Below are positions 14,147 to 43,760 of a DNA stretch of 64,000 bases, piece by piece (positions within the stretch are counted from its first letter, which is position 1; each line of letters starts with the position of its first letter). Position numbers and translations under genes: made by a program. Origin of the DNA: an uncultured Pelagibacteraceae bacterium. Lineage in GTDB: Bacteria; Pseudomonadota; Alphaproteobacteria; Pelagibacterales; Pelagibacteraceae. The notes under the pieces were generated by a model. The model was given only the letters and a program-made list of their open reading frames with translations, made no database searches and was not told the DNA's origin. The DNA is taken from the NCBI GenBank assembly GCA_902614055.1, contig CACMJX010000001.1:315189-379188 (forward strand), written 5' to 3'.

Positions 14147-14542
14147 TTAACTTTTTATTGAAGTTTTTAAAGCTTGGTAAATTAAATCTTCTGTAGTTTC
14201 TCCTATACTTCTATAAACTTCTTTATCACCCTTAAAAATCAATAGAGTGGTTTGATATAGTATATTAAATGAGTTAGCTATATCTCTATTTGTTACATCG
14301 AATGAAAAATATTCAATGTTATCAAATTTAATATCAGATAATTCACCTTCTTTTTTTGCTGTTTGTAAAACTTTCATCTGATTTGCACATGATCCACAGT
14401 ACTCTATCCAAGAACTAATAACTATAACCTTTCCTTCAGACTGAGCTTTCTCAAATAGTGCTTTATCAAATGTAGTCCTCTTTTCCATTGCATTTGCACT
14501 AAATGCAAACAAACAAAGTATAAAGACAATAAATTTTTTCAT
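14147..14542 (-). CDS. Secreted thioredoxin-fold protein
   Basis: Signal peptide 'MKKFIVFILCLFAFSANA', CxxC motif 'SSWIEYCGSCANQM'. Confidence 0.75.
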   Translation of the reverse strand: MKKFIVFILCLFAFSANAMEKRTTFDKALFEKAQSEGKVIVISSWIEYCGSCANQMKVLQTAKKEGELSDIKFDNIEYFSFDVTNRDIANSFNILYQTTLLIFKGDKEVYRSIGETTEDLIYQALKTSIKS

Positions 14543-19859: not shown

Positions 19860-19873
19860 AATTTTTTAAACTT

Positions 19874-20869
19874 TTACTTAATTTTCTCTAAAATGAAATT
19901 AGAAACTTTCTCAACAGTTAAATTTTTCATATCATTTCTGTCTCTACTCAAGATATTTTCATCATAGTTGTCAGGAGTTATTGTTAAGATATTACTATAT
20001 TTCAATTCACTTACTGGATCATTACAAATTAATCCAAAACTTTTGACACCAAGTGCCGCAGCCATATTCATTGGTCCAGAATTGTTTCCCACAAAAAAAG
20101 ATGATTTTTTCAATATACCCATAATATTTGCCAAATCATATTTTGAGCAGTTAATAAAGTATTTATTTTGTGATAAGCTTATGATTTTAGATGCTATATG
20201 ATCGTTTTTTTTACTACAAATTAAATAAACTTTCTCGAAAAGGTTCTTTTCAAATAAAATATTTGCTAATTCAACAAATAGTTCTTCATACCACATTCTA
20301 AATTCTTCACTCGAATCAATCCCAAATGAAATGATTTTTTTATCAATTTTTTTTATATTTATATCGATATCATCTCTTTCAAAATTAATTGTTAATTCTG
20401 GAAATATATCTCTGACTGTAATGTTATTCAGTAATAATAATTTTTGCGATTGATCAGAGTAAGTTAGTTTCCAATCTTCTTCATTAAAAAAATTTTTACA
20501 GGTTAACCATTTTTTTTGATTTCCCAATCCTGGGCCAATTATATTTTGGATGCCAGCAAATTTTGCTGCTATAGCAGGTCTACTAATTTTATCTAACACA
20601 TATAAATGACTAAAATGCCCGCTTTTTAAAAATTTAAAAAGTTTAAATGTATCTATCCAATAATTAAAATTCTTTCTAAATTGGTTATACTTAATAATTT
20701 CTATATAATCTAAATCTTTAAAAATTATTTTTGCCCGAGTTTCTTCTCTAGTAATTAAAATAATATTTTTTTTATGATATAAACTAATAGCCTTAATATA
20801 TGGTAATTGCCATATTAAGTCTCCTACTTTTGAATGTGAATAAACAATACAAATTTTTTTATTTTCCAT
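19874..20869 (-). CDS. Glycosyltransferase family 9 (heptosyltransferase-like)
   Basis: 'IVYSHSKVGDLIWQLPYIKAI' and 'FFVGNNSGPMNMAAALGVKSFGL'. Confidence 0.8.
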   Translation of the reverse strand: MENKKICIVYSHSKVGDLIWQLPYIKAISLYHKKNIILITREETRAKIIFKDLDYIEIIKYNQFRKNFNYWIDTFKLFKFLKSGHFSHLYVLDKISRPAIAAKFAGIQNIIGPGLGNQKKWLTCKNFFNEEDWKLTYSDQSQKLLLLNNITVRDIFPELTINFERDDIDINIKKIDKKIISFGIDSSEEFRMWYEELFVELANILFEKNLFEKVYLICSKKNDHIASKIISLSQNKYFINCSKYDLANIMGILKKSSFFVGNNSGPMNMAAALGVKSFGLICNDPVSELKYSNILTITPDNYDENILSRDRNDMKNLTVEKVSNFILEKIK

Positions 20870-21068
20870 TAATAAATTTCTAAATTTTATATGTCATTAT
20901 TTAAACATTTCAGTCTTTGTACAGTTTTTTCTTTACAATAAAATTAAAAGAATTTTTATAAAAAATTAATTTTAATTAAATTAAGATTTGTAAACATTAT
21001 GTATTTATCTAATTACAATAAGGTGCTAATAATAAGTATTTTAAAACTAAAAATAATTTAAGTAAAAT

Positions 21069-23646: not shown

Positions 23647-24762
23647 ATGAATTTAGAAACTAACTCAATAGGATTATTAAAAAAACCATCCGACACAACA
23701 GTAGTCGTTGCAATGTCTGGTGGCGTCGACTCATCTACTGTAGCAGGTATTATGAAAAAAGAAGGCTATAATGTTATTGGTATTACTTTAAAATTATATG
23801 ATGACGGTAAAGAAGTAGCAGCATCCAAGCAATGTTGCTCCGGCCAGGATATAATGGATGCAAAAAGAGTTGCGCACAAATTAGATATAGAACATAAAAT
23901 ACTTTATTATCAAGATAAGTTTAAACAAGGAGTAATAGATAACTTTGTTGAAAGTTATTTAAGAGGCGAGACACCTATTCCATGTGTTCAATGCAACCAA
24001 ACTGTAAAATTCAAAGATTTATTTGATTTTTCAAAAGATTTAAGCGCTGATGCACTTATTACGGGACATTATGTAAAAAGCTTAACAAAAAATAATCAAA
24101 CAAATATGTACAGAGCTTTAGATACCAATAGAGATCAAAGTTATTTTTTATTTAATACTACAAGAGAACAACTAAATTTTTTAAGATTTCCTTTAGGCGG
24201 AATGTTAAAAGATAAAACAAGAGAAATTGCAAAAAAATTAGATTTAAACGTTGCAGATAAACCTGATAGCCAAGATATATGCTTCGTTCCTAACGGAGAT
24301 TATGCTTCAGTAATTGAAAAATTTAAACCTGACTCTTTTAAAAAGGGAAATATCAAAGATTTAGACGGTAAAGTTTTGGGAGTTCATGACGGAATAATAA
24401 ATTTTACAATTGGGCAAAGAAAAGGAATTAAGATAGCAAATAAAGAACCCTTATATGTTTTAAATATTGATCCAGATAAAAACGAAATAGTAGTTGGAAA
24501 AAAAAAATACTTAGCAAAAAATAAAATCAATTTACGCAACCTAAATATATTAGAAAATGAATGTATGTTTTCTGAAAAAATTAAAGTTAAAGTAAGATCA
24601 ACAGGCAAACTTTTAGATGCAAAAGTTAATTTAGTAAATGCCGAAAGCGCCAATGTTATTTTAGATAACCCAGAATATGGAATATCTCCTGGACAAGCAT
24701 GTGTTTTTTATAAAAGCGATGAAAATGGAGAGAGATGTTTAGGGGGCGGTTGGATTAATTGA
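23647..24762 (+). CDS. mnmA: tRNA 2-thiouridine(34) synthase MnmA
   Basis: PP-loop '[15 protein letters not shown]', '[14 protein letters not shown]', '[13 protein letters not shown]'. Confidence 0.96.
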
Positions 24763-25401
24763 TTTTTTTTGAGAAAAAAAATAAAATAAAAAAAATAATT
24801 GTATTAATAAAAAATAGTTCCATGAAATTATGTTTTTAATTTGTGGAAAATCCTCAATTTTAATAATTAATATTGGAAGCAAAATTAAACCAGAAATAAC
24901 CAGAAAACTTGATAAGTAGTAATTGAAATGAACTATTTTATAATTAAAAAATTTTGAAAGTTTCTTTTCATTTTTAATTAATATTCTATTTGAGGAAAAC
25001 TGAAGTAATACAATTGAAAGAATATAGAAATAAATGCCAATTCTTTTAAAAAAAGAATAAACTTTACTTTCACCTAAAAAAGTTATGTATAAACATAAAA
25101 AAATGACTGTTATGTAGGTTAATATAACTAAGTTTTTAGTTTCAATTTTAGTATTATTAATCTCTTTTAAAAAAATATTCCAAAAAAAAAATATAAATAT
25201 TGCGTAAAAAAACATCATTGGTTTAAAAAAGAATTTCACAGGTTCATATCGTCCAGCTCTTGAGATCGAAGTACATCCCTCAAAATTTGGAATACACGTG
25301 GCCACTAAATTGAGTTTTATTGATATTAAGTATGAGATTATAACTGTAAAAACTGGCAGGACAAAACAAGCCAGTGATATAAATCTTAGCCTGTTAGACA
25401 T
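24739..25401 (-). CDS. Uncharacterised polytopic membrane protein (DUF998-like)
   Basis: 220 aa, about six TM segments, '[28 protein letters not shown]'. Confidence 0.5.
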
Positions 25402-25416
25402 TATTTGAAATTTAAA

Positions 25417-29163: not shown

Positions 29164-29717
29164 TTTATATTATTGATCATCAAGATTCATTTACATGGAA
29201 TGTGGTTCACCAATTTTCTGAATTTGATGAAGTATATTGCTCAAATTATTTTGAAATAAATAAAAAATTATTAAATAAATGTAACACAATTGTATTTTCC
29301 CCTGGACCAGGTTCACCAAAAGATTATCCAACATCATTAAAGATTTATAATAAATTCAAAGGAGCAAAAAAAATTATTGGTATTTGTCTTGGTTATCAAT
29401 TGATCTTACACAGTGAAAATGGAAAAATTATTCAGCAAAAAAATATTTATCATGGTTTTCAATCGACTGTTAAAGTTACAAGCAATAATTCTATTTTTAA
29501 AAAAAATTCAGTTTTTAAAGTTGGCAGGTACCATTCACTTAAGTTAAAAGAACCTTTTATGAGAGAAAACTTTAATATTACAATGAGATGTACTAAATCT
29601 AATATAGCAATGGGTTTCGAAAATAGTCAAGATGATGTATATGGATTTCAGTTTCACCCAGAATCTTTTTTGACAAATAATGGTAAAATACTTATTAAAA
29701 AAATCTTATCAGCGTAA
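29160..29717 (+). CDS. pabA: Aminodeoxychorismate synthase component II (glutamine amidotransferase)
   Basis: 'DHQDSFTWNVVHQF', 'FSPGPGSPKDYP', 'GICLGYQLI', 'GFQFHPESFLT'. Confidence 0.9.
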   Translation: MIYIIDHQDSFTWNVVHQFSEFDEVYCSNYFEINKKLLNKCNTIVFSPGPGSPKDYPTSLKIYNKFKGAKKIIGICLGYQLILHSENGKIIQQKNIYHGFQSTVKVTSNNSIFKKNSVFKVGRYHSLKLKEPFMRENFNITMRCTKSNIAMGFENSQDDVYGFQFHPESFLTNNGKILIKKILSA

Positions 29718-30450
29718 AAACTTTAAAGAAATTGAGTTTGATGATCTATGGAACAAGGATGGAGTTTTTACAACAATGTGGATCTATAACAAGCCTCCTA
29801 AAATTCTTTTTTTTAACCCACACATTGAAAACTTAATAAAATCATTAAAGGCTTATAAAATCTATGATAAAACAATAAAAAGTAAAATACTAAAAGTAAT
29901 AAGTGAAAATATAGATAAAACCAAATCTTATAATCATTTACTCAGAGTTGCCTTAAATAAAAAAATTATTTCAATATCACTTAGAAACAGAGTGAAACCT
30001 AAGCGAAAATTTGGTATTAAATTAGTCCACTATAAAAGAGTGAAACCTGAATATAAAAATTTAAAATATAAAAAAATATTAGGTTACTTATCGAAAATGA
30101 ATACTTCAAAAGAAGATATTGCTTTATGCGTAAAAGATAAAATATTTGAGACTGGTACATCAAATTTACTATTTGTAAAAAAAAACAAAATTTATTCTCC
30201 AAAAAACAAATACTACAGAGGAACTAATATTAAATTTTATGAAAAAAAATTTAATATAATTAAAAAAGATATTTATCTGAAAGAATTAAATAATTTTGAT
30301 GAAATCTTGCTTGTTGGTTCTGGTAAAGGAGTGGTTTCTACAAGCTATATTTTAGATAGAAATTGGAGGAGAAAAAAAACAAAGGTATTTAATTCAATGT
30401 ACAAAACTTTTAAAAAAGAATTTAAAAAAGAAAAATATATTTTTAATTAA
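29680..30450 (+). CDS. pabC: Class IV aminotransferase, probable 4-amino-4-deoxychorismate lyase
   Basis: 'FETGTSNLLFVKKNKIYSP', 'FDEILLVGSGKGVVST'; downstream of and overlapping pabA. Confidence 0.75.
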   Translation: MVKYLLKKSYQRKNFKEIEFDDLWNKDGVFTTMWIYNKPPKILFFNPHIENLIKSLKAYKIYDKTIKSKILKVISENIDKTKSYNHLLRVALNKKIISISLRNRVKPKRKFGIKLVHYKRVKPEYKNLKYKKILGYLSKMNTSKEDIALCVKDKIFETGTSNLLFVKKNKIYSPKNKYYRGTNIKFYEKKFNIIKKDIYLKELNNFDEILLVGSGKGVVSTSYILDRNWRRKKTKVFNSMYKTFKKEFKKEKYIFN

Positions 30451-30453
30451 ATA

Positions 30454-30855
30454 ATGAGAGATCCAAATAAACCGTATTTATTTTATAAAATATCTAAAAA
30501 AGAATTTGAGTTAGAAAATGAATTAGTTTGCGCAAGTTATGATAGTTACCCAGTTTCCAAATATCATGCTTTAATAATCCCAAAAAGACATGTTGAAAAT
30601 TATTTTGAACTTCGTAATGAAGAAGTATTAGCATGTGACGCTCTATTAAAAGAACTAAAAAAGAAACTTGAGGATAAAGACAATACCATTGATGGTTTTA
30701 ATGTAGGATCAAATTCTGGCAAATCCGCAGGATAATAAATTAATCATTGCCACATCCATCTGATTCCAAGAAGATTAGGAGATGTTGATAACCCCCAAGA
30801 TGGTGTAAGAAGTGTAATAGCTTCTAAACAGCACTATGTAAGAAAAAACAAATAA
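30454..30855 (+). pseudogene. HIT-family protein interrupted by two tandem in-frame TAA codons
   Basis: ORF stops at 30733-30738 (TAA TAA), but the same frame continues INHCHIHLIPRRLGDVDNPQDGVRSVIASKQHYVRKNK to TAA 30853-30855, supplying the HxHxH motif. Confidence 0.85.
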
Positions 30856-30949
30856 TATTAAGTCATAAGTCCTGTTGAAATGTCATTATATCGCGGTTGA
30901 TCTCTATAAATAAGTATACTAAAAATCTTAGGCGGAAGGATAAATCACA

Positions 30950-31750
30950 ATGATTTCAACAAACCCATTTTTAATTTTAGCCGATAGTGTGCCACCAATA
31001 CTAATGCAATCTTTTGTAATTTTGATGGGTTTATTAATTTTAGTTGGAACTGTTATGGATATAATTCACAAAAAAAACGTAAAATATTTTTTTGAAAACG
31101 CAAAAAAAGCAAAATTGTCTGCTTCAAAAACTTTATCTACAGGAGAAAGAATTTCAGTAATATCTAAAACAATTGCAAGTGACATTGCAACTACATCAGA
31201 ACTAGGAGCTGGGAAAAGAAGGCTAGCACATGTGATGGGAATGTATGGAACTATACTTTTTTGGATAGGTTCAGTTGTTATGATATTTTTTTACACATCT
31301 CCTGGATCAGTAACACCATCTGTATGGCCAATCATTTGGCATTTAGGTGCAGCATTAACCGTTCTTGGTGGATCTTGGTTTTGGTTTTTTTTAAGAGTTG
31401 ATGTTTATTCTGAAGCACAACCTTGGTACAGAGTTATAAAAGCTGATTTATTTGTTTTAGCACTGATTGCTTCTTCCTTATTTGGACTAATCTGGTCTTT
31501 TCTACAATCATTAAATCTGCAAGGAAGATGGGACGATGTTGTATTCTTAGTTTTATTTATTGTTGCTAACTTAGTTTTATTTGGTGGTGTATATTGGTCA
31601 AAATTTGCACATATGTTTTATAAACCCGGTGCAGCTCTTCAAAAAAATTTAGCTGAGGCTGATGGCTCAAGAGACAATTTACCACCTGAGTCTGATGCAC
31701 CTGAACAATTTGGTCTTGGTATTAAAAGAGAGGAGCCAAAACATTATTAA
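30950..31750 (+). CDS. aprM: APS reductase membrane anchor AprM
   Basis: Polytopic protein directly upstream of aprBA; 'RRLAHVMGMYGTILFWIGSVVMIFFY'. Confidence 0.82.
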   Translation: MISTNPFLILADSVPPILMQSFVILMGLLILVGTVMDIIHKKNVKYFFENAKKAKLSASKTLSTGERISVISKTIASDIATTSELGAGKRRLAHVMGMYGTILFWIGSVVMIFFYTSPGSVTPSVWPIIWHLGAALTVLGGSWFWFFLRVDVYSEAQPWYRVIKADLFVLALIASSLFGLIWSFLQSLNLQGRWDDVVFLVLFIVANLVLFGGVYWSKFAHMFYKPGAALQKNLAEADGSRDNLPPESDAPEQFGLGIKREEPKHY

Positions 31751-31784
31751 TATGATAAAGAATATAAAGGAGAAAATATAAATT

Positions 31785-32255
31785 ATGTCAACTTTTGTAT
31801 ATATGACCAGATGTGATGGATGTGGTCACTGTGTAGATATTTGTCCGTCAGATATAATGCATATCGATGAAACAATAAGAAGAGCAAAAAATATTGAACC
31901 AAATTTTTGCTGGGAATGCTACTCATGTGTAAAAGCATGCCCTAATCATGCCATCGATGTAAGAGGTTACGCAGATTTTGCTCCAATGGGTCATAGCGTA
32001 AGAGTTAGAAGAGAAGAAGAGAAAGGAACTATTTCTTGGAGGATAAAATTTAGAAATGGAACTGAAAAGAATTTTGTATCACCTATAACGACAAAGCCTT
32101 GGGGTGAATATATTCCAAATTTAGCAGAAGGCGACAAACCAAATCAAGGAGAAATCAATTCTCAAATTCTCTATTCAGAACCAGAAGGACTTAATACAAA
32201 CCAAGAATTACCTAAAGTTGATAAGAGTGCCTTTAAAAAAGGGGTTTATTATTAA
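31785..32255 (+). CDS. aprB: Adenylylsulfate reductase beta subunit
   Basis: Two ferredoxin clusters 'CDGCGHCVDICPSDIMHID' and 'CWECYSCVKACPNHAIDVRGYADFAPMG'. Confidence 0.95.
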   Translation: MSTFVYMTRCDGCGHCVDICPSDIMHIDETIRRAKNIEPNFCWECYSCVKACPNHAIDVRGYADFAPMGHSVRVRREEEKGTISWRIKFRNGTEKNFVSPITTKPWGEYIPNLAEGDKPNQGEINSQILYSEPEGLNTNQELPKVDKSAFKKGVYY

Positions 32256-34111
32256 TGGCTAGAAAAACTATTGTAGAAAATTGTGATGTACTTGTAGTCG
32301 GTGGAGGTATGGCCGGTACCGGTGCAACATTTGAAGCTAGGCACTGGGGTAGAGATTTAAAGATAGTCTGTGTTGAAAAAGCTAACATAGATAGAAGTGG
32401 TGCAGTCGCGCAAGGACTTTATGCAATTAATTGTTACATGGGAATGCAGTGGGGTGAAAATCAACCCGAGGATCATGTAAGATATGCAAGAAATGATTTA
32501 ATGGGATTAGTAAGGGAAGATCTTGGATATGATATGGCTCGTCATGTAGACTCAACTGTACACATGTTTGATGAGTGGGGCCTGCCAATGATGAAAAATG
32601 AAAAAACTGGTCGTTATCAAAGAGAGGGTAAATGGCAAATAATGATACACGGCGAAAGCTATAAACCAATCGTAGCTGAGGCAGCAAAGAAATCAGCAGA
32701 TAAAATTTATAACCGAATTATGATTACTCATCTTTTAATGGATGAAAACAAAGAAAATAGAGTTGGGGGAGCTGTTGGATTTAATATGAGAACTGGTGAT
32801 TACCATGTCTTTAAAGCAAAGACAGTTATTGTAGCTGCTGGTGGAGCTTCACATATTTTTAAACCAAGAGCAGTTGGTGAAGGAATGGGTAGAACTTGGT
32901 ATGCCCCTTGGAGCAACGGGTCAGCATATGCATTACCTATTGCTGCTGGTGCAAAAATGACTCAAATGGAAAATCGAATTGTCCTTTGTAGATTTAAGGA
33001 TGGTTATGGTCCAGTTGGTGCATATTTCTTACATCTTAAAACATACACCCAAAACGCAAATGGTGAGAATTATGAGAAGAAATGGTATGAAAAAACCAAA
33101 GAATTAGTTGGAGAGTATATTGATCATCATCCAACTCCAACATGTTTACGTAATCACGCTTTCATTCAAGAAACTATGGCAGGTGGAGGACCTATTCATA
33201 TGGTTACCAAAGAAGCTTTCCAAGATCCACACTTAGAAACAGTGGGTTGGGAAAATTTCCTTGGAATGACTGTTGGACAGGCAGTAGTTTGGGCATCTCA
33301 AAATATTGACCCAAAGTATACTAATCCAGAATTAACAACGTCTGAGCCATACGTTATGGGCTCACACGCAACGTGTTCTGGTGCATGGGTTAGTGGACCA
33401 GAAGACTTATCACCGCCTGAATATTTCTGGGGTTATAACAGAATGACAACAATAGAAGGCTTATTTGGAGCTGGTGATACCGTAGGAGGAAGTGCTCACA
33501 AATTTTCATCTGGATCATTTACTGAAGGGAGACTTGCAGCAAAAGCAGCTGTTAAATACATAGAAGAACAAAAAGCAGCTGACATTAACGTTAGTGATAA
33601 GCAATGTGAGGATTTTAAAGAAGTGATTTATAAACCCCTTGAAAATTACACGGTTGGAAGAAACGAAATAACTGGAGGAACAGTGTCTCCAAGTTATATT
33701 TCTCCTATTCAAGGTTTACAGAGACTACAAAAAATTATGGACGAATATGTTGGTGGAATAAGTTATAATTATATGACTAACGAAAATACTCTTAAAAAAG
33801 GTCTTGAGTTGTTAGCATGGCTTGAAGAAGATTTAGAAAATGTAGGTGCTGAGGACTACCATCAACTTATGAGAGCTTGGGAGCTCAAACATAGAACATT
33901 AACCTCACAATGTGTAACTGAGCATACTTTATTTAGACAAGAAACACGTTGGCCTGGATACTATTACAGAGGTGATTATATGAAACTCGATGATGAAAAT
34001 TGGCATTGTTTAACGTTATCTAGAAGAGATCCAAAAACAGGCAAATTTACAATGGAAAAGGCTCCTGTTTATCATATCGTAGACGAAAAAGAGAAAAAAG
34101 AAGCTTCCTAA
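32255..34111 (+). CDS. aprA: Adenylylsulfate reductase alpha subunit
   Basis: FAD motif 'DVLVVGGGMAGTGATFEARHWG'; 'GAVAQGLYAINCYMGMQWGENQPEDHVRYARNDLMGLVREDLGYDMARHVDSTVHMFDEWGLPM' typical of AprA. Confidence 0.97.
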   Translation: MARKTIVENCDVLVVGGGMAGTGATFEARHWGRDLKIVCVEKANIDRSGAVAQGLYAINCYMGMQWGENQPEDHVRYARNDLMGLVREDLGYDMARHVDSTVHMFDEWGLPMMKNEKTGRYQREGKWQIMIHGESYKPIVAEAAKKSADKIYNRIMITHLLMDENKENRVGGAVGFNMRTGDYHVFKAKTVIVAAGGASHIFKPRAVGEGMGRTWYAPWSNGSAYALPIAAGAKMTQMENRIVLCRFKDGYGPVGAYFLHLKTYTQNANGENYEKKWYEKTKELVGEYIDHHPTPTCLRNHAFIQETMAGGGPIHMVTKEAFQDPHLETVGWENFLGMTVGQAVVWASQNIDPKYTNPELTTSEPYVMGSHATCSGAWVSGPEDLSPPEYFWGYNRMTTIEGLFGAGDTVGGSAHKFSSGSFTEGRLAAKAAVKYIEEQKAADINVSDKQCEDFKEVIYKPLENYTVGRNEITGGTVSPSYISPIQGLQRLQKIMDEYVGGISYNYMTNENTLKKGLELLAWLEEDLENVGAEDYHQLMRAWELKHRTLTSQCVTEHTLFRQETRWPGYYYRGDYMKLDDENWHCLTLSRRDPKTGKFTMEKAPVYHIVDEKEKKEAS

Positions 34112-42099: not shown

Positions 42100-42972
42100 A
42101 TGTCAAATAATAAATTAGCAATAATAGGTGGAAGTGGTCTATATGACGTAGAGGAGTTTAAAGATAGAGAATTAATAGATTTAAACACTCCTTGGGGAAA
42201 ACCATCAGATCAGATTTTAAAAACAATTTATAAAAATAAGGAAGTTTATTTTTTACCAAGACATGGTAAGGGACACTTTATTTCACCATCAAACATTAAT
42301 TTTAGAGCAAATATTGACTCATTAAAACAATTGGGTGTAACAGATATTGTCTCTGTATCTGCTGTTGGTTCTTTGAAAGAAAACTTGTCACCCGGTAAAT
42401 TTGTTATTATTGACCAATTTATAGACAGAACATTCGCTAGAAATAAAACTTTCTTTGACGATGAAATAGTTGCTCATGTATCAATGGCACACCCGACCTC
42501 TAAGAGTTTAATGAATGCATGTGAAGATGCAATTAAAAAAGAAGGAATAGATTATCAAAGGGGAGGAACTTATGTAGTAATGGAAGGTCCACAATTTTCA
42601 ACTTTAGCTGAATCAAATCTTTACAGATCATGGAAAGCCGATGTGATAGGAATGACAAATATGCCTGAGGCCAAATTAGCAAGAGAAGCAGAAATTAGAT
42701 ATGCATCTGTCTCAATGGTAACAGATTATGATTGTTGGCATCCAGATCATGAAAATGTTGATGTGCAACAAGTGATAAAAGTATTATTAGATAATGCTTC
42801 TAAAGCAAAAAGTATGATTAAAAATCTTATTGATAATTTTGATACTCATATTGACCCGAATGACCCAGTAAATAATTGCTTAGATGTTGCTATAATTACT
42901 GCTCCAGAAAAAAGATCACAGAAAACGAAAGACAAACTAAAAACAGTAGCTGGAAGAGTTTTAAATAAGTGA
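42100..42972 (+). CDS. mtnP: S-methyl-5'-thioadenosine phosphorylase
   Basis: 'AIIGGSGLYDVEEF', 'FLPRHGKGHFISPSNINFRANI', 'MEGPQFSTLAESNLYRSWKADVIGMTNMPEAKLAREAEI'. Confidence 0.95.
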   Translation: MSNNKLAIIGGSGLYDVEEFKDRELIDLNTPWGKPSDQILKTIYKNKEVYFLPRHGKGHFISPSNINFRANIDSLKQLGVTDIVSVSAVGSLKENLSPGKFVIIDQFIDRTFARNKTFFDDEIVAHVSMAHPTSKSLMNACEDAIKKEGIDYQRGGTYVVMEGPQFSTLAESNLYRSWKADVIGMTNMPEAKLAREAEIRYASVSMVTDYDCWHPDHENVDVQQVIKVLLDNASKAKSMIKNLIDNFDTHIDPNDPVNNCLDVAIITAPEKRSQKTKDKLKTVAGRVLNK

Positions 42973-43760
42973 CAGTAAAATTATCTGATAAACAAATTTT
43001 AAATTATAAAAATGATGGTGTAATTTTAATTAAAGAAGTTTTTTTACCTTGGATTGAAAAACTTAAAACTGGATTTCACAAAGTATTAAGTAACCCAAGT
43101 TCATATGGAAGAGAAAATATTTCAAAACAACAAAGAGGGAGATTTTTTGAGGACTATTGTAACTGGAGAAGAATTGAAGAATTTAAAGATTTTATTTTTA
43201 ATTCACCAGCAGCGGAAATTGTTGCTCAATCAACTCAATCTAATCAAATTCAGGTATTTCACGAACACATTTTCTTGAAGGAACCTGGGACAAAAAAGGA
43301 AACTCCATGGCATCAAGATCTTCCATACTATTGTGTAGATGGAAATGATACAGGAAGTTTCTGGATACCATTAGATAATGTATCAAAAGATAACTGCCTA
43401 AAAGTTTTGAAAGGATCCCATAAGTTACCAATGTTAGTAAAGCCTACCAAATGGTCAAATGAAACTTTTTGGTATAAAAATAACAAGAATTTTATGGATA
43501 TGCCAAATATAGATAAAAATAATATTTTTAGTGCAGAGATGAATATGGGAGATGCAATATTATTTAATTTTAAAGTTTTACATTCATCTTCAGGAAATAA
43601 TGACAAAAAAAGTCGTAAAGCATTCTCTGCAAGATTTATTGGAGACGATGTAAGATACATTGATAGAAAAGGAGAAACTTCCCCACCTTTTGAAAGAATA
43701 AATTTAAATTCAGGAGATAAAATGAGAAAGGATTGGTTTCCTGTGGTTTGGAGTAATTAA
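42969..43760 (+). CDS. Phytanoyl-CoA dioxygenase (PhyH)-family Fe(II)/2OG oxygenase
   Basis: 'ETPWHQDLPYYCVDGNDTGSFWIPLDNVSKDNCLKVLKGSHK', distal 'LHSSSGNND' His and Arg; GTG start. Confidence 0.85.
   Translation: MTVKLSDKQILNYKNDGVILIKEVFLPWIEKLKTGFHKVLSNPSSYGRENISKQQRGRFFEDYCNWRRIEEFKDFIFNSPAAEIVAQSTQSNQIQVFHEHIFLKEPGTKKETPWHQDLPYYCVDGNDTGSFWIPLDNVSKDNCLKVLKGSHKLPMLVKPTKWSNETFWYKNNKNFMDMPNIDKNNIFSAEMNMGDAILFNFKVLHSSSGNNDKKSRKAFSARFIGDDVRYIDRKGETSPPFERINLNSGDKMRKDWFPVVWSN

Follow-up and report, generated by a model that had tools for sequence, protein, structure and literature searches.

Introduction

HinT-type purine nucleoside phosphoramidases and related HIT proteins (PDB entries 2eo4, 3l7x and 1y23) can be aligned by sequence with the intact orthologues of a HIT gene of Pelagibacter (SAR11). 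The copy of this gene described here, from an uncultured member of the group, differs from these proteins by stop codons located before the H-C-H-I-H motif. Premature stops, relaxed selection and intact flanking genes are general features of bacterial nonsense pseudogenes and are also found for this HIT gene. A passage of PMC4285135, citing Giovannoni 2005, gives pseudogenes as absent from Pelagibacter ubique HTCC1062. With regard to the surroundings of the gene, aprM is located before aprBA (PMC2211403), and for Ca. P. ubique, in which sat is absent, a function of AprBA in the detoxification of sulfite has been proposed (PMC5069961).

Results

The window, i.e. the whole stretch of 64,000 nucleotides that was analysed, belongs to a draft genome of 1.17 Mb in 35 contigs that is 78% complete. 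The HIT-domain frame (30454..30855, plus strand, as are its parts and the flanking genes described below) comprises 133 codons plus a stop. Its first 93 codons are followed by TAA TAA (30733..30738, codons 94 and 95), after which the translation continues as INHCHIHLIPRR...KNK up to the terminal TAA at 30853-30855. The Pfam HIT profile PF01230 spans both stops with a score of 62.6 bits (cut-off 21.5), which rules out a chance homology. By descent, as judged by a score above the curated cut-off, the frame read through its stops is a HIT gene. As a working enzyme, for which an open frame including the HxHxH motif is expected, it does not qualify because TAA TAA stands before HCHIH. Two in-frame TAA codons at the catalytic motif had already been recognized in a sequence-only reading and were recovered here directly in front of HCHIH; the residues they replace had been expected to be Gln-Thr, but are Gln94-Ser95 in 80 of 80 distinct orthologues. 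Each TAA is one substitution away from the codon of the relatives, and the frame contains no frameshift, i.e. no frame-breaking indel.

Some HIT match was present in 148 of 151 genomes sampled from the same genus. Conservation was counted over 109 orthologous loci, which represent 80 distinct protein sequences, and no internal stop was found in any of them. Stops flagged in the HIT genes of four genomes (G147, G084, G123 and G037) proved to be located at the natural C-terminal end, outside the interior of the domain. The window copy shares with the intact Pelagibacter orthologues (PF01230) the position between pabC and aprM, the length and the order of motifs, and is distinguished from them by the two stops and by six amino-acid replacements, most of which fall on nearly invariant residues.

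The nearest relative, SAR11 single cell AG-904-G21 (L057), has an open HIT frame that is 97.3% identical over the gene, with an identity of only about 92% across the surrounding 15 kb. The two HIT genes differ at 11 bases in 10 codons. Using L053 as a third sequence to polarize these differences, 10 of the 11 bases were private to the window and none could be assigned to the L057 side; at the remaining one, a silent site, all three sequences differ from one another. In eight of the 10 codons the change affects the protein (N6K, C8Y, C11Y, A25V, Y26C, Q94stop, S95stop and G116D). Five of these changes, N6K to Y26C, form a cluster in the N-terminal part, upstream of the stops (30469..30531), as seen from the comparison with L057 and from orthologue conservation. 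Among the relatives, C8, C11 (both conserved in 79 of 79 orthologues), Q94, S95 and G116 (Gly in 80 of 80) are invariant, N6 and A25 are almost invariant, and either Tyr or Phe is found at position 26. The window-private G116D (30799..30801) is located in the remnant C-terminal frame that carries the HCHIH motif (30739..30855). Everything behind the stops had been described as intact and in frame, of which only the second part is correct, since an invariant glycine has been lost.

The flanking genes are intact. The frame is preceded by a pabC-like gene for a class IV aminotransferase (29680..30450; PF01063, 3.4e-20; dN/dS 0.12 between window and L057) and, further upstream, by two genes identified by eye as pabB and pabA. 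It is followed by a gene for an aprM-like membrane protein (30950..31750), which had no Pfam or NCBIfam match and was named by its position before aprBA (PMC2211403), and by aprB (31785..32255; TIGR02060, 1e-56) and aprA (32255..34111; TIGR02061, 4.8e-301).

To assess selection on the HIT gene, the same base changes were placed at random on the L057 gene. The neutral expectation was 7.9 amino-acid-changing codons (95% range 5-10), compared with eight observed; at least one stop arose in 21% of the trials and at least two stops in 1.6%. In the aligned genes elsewhere in the window, 240 of 1121 private codon changes (21%) were amino-acid-changing (Fisher p = 3.6e-5 versus HIT), and for the immediate neighbours the share was 29 of 137 (p = 6.7e-5). 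Low dN/dS values of 0.01-0.17 between window and L057 were obtained for pabB, pabA, pabC, aprM, aprB and aprA, and the intact HIT genes compared with one another gave a median of 0.068, versus 0.66 for the window HIT gene, a value resting on 11 substitutions. Compared with the intact orthologues that occupy this locus in relatives, the frame carries a disabling lesion, and with eight of 10 changed codons nonsynonymous, purifying selection is lost over its whole length. An amino-acid-changing share at the neutral expectation over 11 substitutions indicates that constraint on the gene ceased some time ago. A nonsense lesion, as proposed from the sequence alone, is thus supported, but its description as very recent does not agree with 11 substitutions from the nearest intact relative.

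The same changes might also have been introduced by amplification, sequencing or assembly, in which case the true gene would be intact. Errors, too, fall randomly on codon positions, so that the neutral pattern taken by itself fits them, and the data come from a single incomplete draft in many contigs. This explanation would, however, need about nine errors within the 402 bases of the HIT gene, none of them a frame-breaking indel. In aprM, aprB and aprA only four private amino-acid-changing codons were counted in 1040, and at that rate the Poisson probability of eight in HIT is 7e-8. Moreover, HIT, with 11 private substitutions in 402 bases, has about the same density of such changes as the adjoining intact pabC (25 private codons in 256). 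What changed in HIT is the placement of substitutions and not their density, suggesting that purifying selection is gone rather than that errors have piled up. We therefore regard an error, including the assembly error considered earlier, as unlikely.

Two other genes of the window with a high amino-acid-changing share (42969-43760 and 14147-14542) keep their frames open and resemble cases of ordinary divergence. The former, dioxygenase-like by eye, has 31 amino-acid-changing and 22 silent window-private codons; this excess perhaps reflects recombination with a more distant relative. The segments 19860-21066 and 24760-25416 could not be aligned to either sister genome. Their flanks are conserved, which points to lineage-specific gene content in an otherwise syntenic region.

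Recoding or read-through of the tandem TAA would allow the full HIT enzyme to be made. The frame is indeed open past the stops to its normal end, and the RNA downstream of them folds slightly better than shuffled sequences (z-score -2.1). This fold is weak and no Rfam element was matched near the stops; an RNA element at this site was therefore rejected. An alternative genetic code was rejected as well, because 45 of the 59 window genes use TAA as their regular stop. No tRNA with a TTA anticodon was present among the 29 identified in the 78% complete genome, which argues against a suppressor tRNA; the sole odd match was a truncated tRNA-Gly-like copy. Furthermore, selection is not kept on both sides of the stops, and stops at codons 94 and 95 occur in no relative. 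The loss of both N-terminal cysteines and of the invariant glycine would be unexpected in a functional recoded enzyme. Since the rest of the protein is unprotected and the stops are unshared, TAA serves as the usual terminator and no cognate tRNA was detected, we consider recoding very improbable. The truncated tRNA-Gly-like copy (anticodon GCC; L187, 1501-1567; contig C4:12320-12386) lies about 1.6 kb from an intact tRNA-Gly(GCC) (L158; C4:10668-10739), an arrangement resembling the border of an integrated element.

Separate translation of two HIT halves that then reassemble is the least credible explanation, for although the HCHIH segment is still legible and ATT, a rare start codon, directly follows the stops, a search of the in-frame codons behind them for an internal start revealed no ATG, GTG or TTG, the 38-codon tail is itself damaged at the invariant glycine and the N-terminal half is decaying at the neutral rate.

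The junction between pabC and aprM was compared among Pelagibacter genomes. HIT was located there at the usual spacing in 76 of 76 scorable loci out of 80, a result to be expected because these loci came from a search selecting for HIT. In G020, G025, G053, G066, G101, G109 and G143, pabC and aprM are only 40-94 bases apart and no HIT gene lies between them. G084 and G123 show the same gap without HIT and encode an HNH-HIT fusion at another place. In G095 and G018, such a fusion sits at the junction itself, where the gap measures about 1090 bases. HNH endonuclease-HIT fusions of 330-345 residues (PF01844 plus PF01230) were observed at five loci: exactly at the pabC-aprM junction, replacing the free HIT gene, in L037 and L038, and elsewhere in L034, L035 and L039. 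Given that other lineages have empty or swapped junctions, the most plausible reading of the window HIT gene is a transitional stage of a loss that is already complete in those lineages. The genome carrying the window has another HIT gene on contig C4, which is HinT-like and intact.

Discussion

Most probably (we would put it at about 0.9), the frame at 30454..30855 is a genuine and established pseudogene, derived from a gene for a HIT-family nucleotide hydrolase/transferase of Pelagibacter (SAR11), with stops, a drifting frame and a loss that is tolerated. Two single-base changes in adjacent codons produced the tandem stops directly 5' of the catalytic HCHIH motif. Any polypeptide still made would end after 93 residues and lack the catalytic histidines, and the remainder of the gene is drifting without purifying selection. 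A functional protein is presumably no longer made from this frame. Its loss is tolerated in that the HinT gene is kept, and other Pelagibacter lineages have deleted the gene cleanly from the pabC-aprM junction. The best reading is thus an established pseudogene midway through a recurrent loss, of which deletion would be the eventual end. One genome represents the species here, in which intact HIT alleles may still segregate.

In the window (30454-32255) and in related loci, HIT is located directly upstream of aprMBA, and the 78% complete genome yielded no ATP sulfurylase, which would be compatible with a tentative link to the turnover of adenylyl sulfate (APS). This compound can serve HIT enzymes as a substrate. 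From this general knowledge and from the gene neighbourhood, one might speculate that the HIT gene between pabC and aprMBA serves the SAR11 sulfite-oxidation locus as a dispensable accessory that consumes APS and is repeatedly lost, replaced by HNH-HIT or decaying. We regard such a function as unlikely: genomes that keep aprBA without HIT exist and weaken the idea, and a direct statement of a HIT-apr link in SAR11 was not found in the literature. If it were true, the HIT pseudogene would point to a lineage with a different way of dealing with APS.

Unlike HTCC1062, the type isolate of the genus, for which the passage in PMC4285135 reports no pseudogenes, this Pelagibacter would carry an intermediate of gene decay, which is less usual in the genus. 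As far as that passage goes, the HIT case appears mildly unusual for Pelagibacter and ordinary for bacteria. It is also a worked example of how a stop in a catalytic motif can be told from recoding by asking whether the remaining frame stays under selection. The HIT pseudogene is best seen as a real but ordinary case of gene decay, and the pabC-aprM region as a junction at which the loss or exchange of a single small gene recurs. In a genus noted for its streamlined genomes, the window copy would then represent a half-way stage of gene loss.
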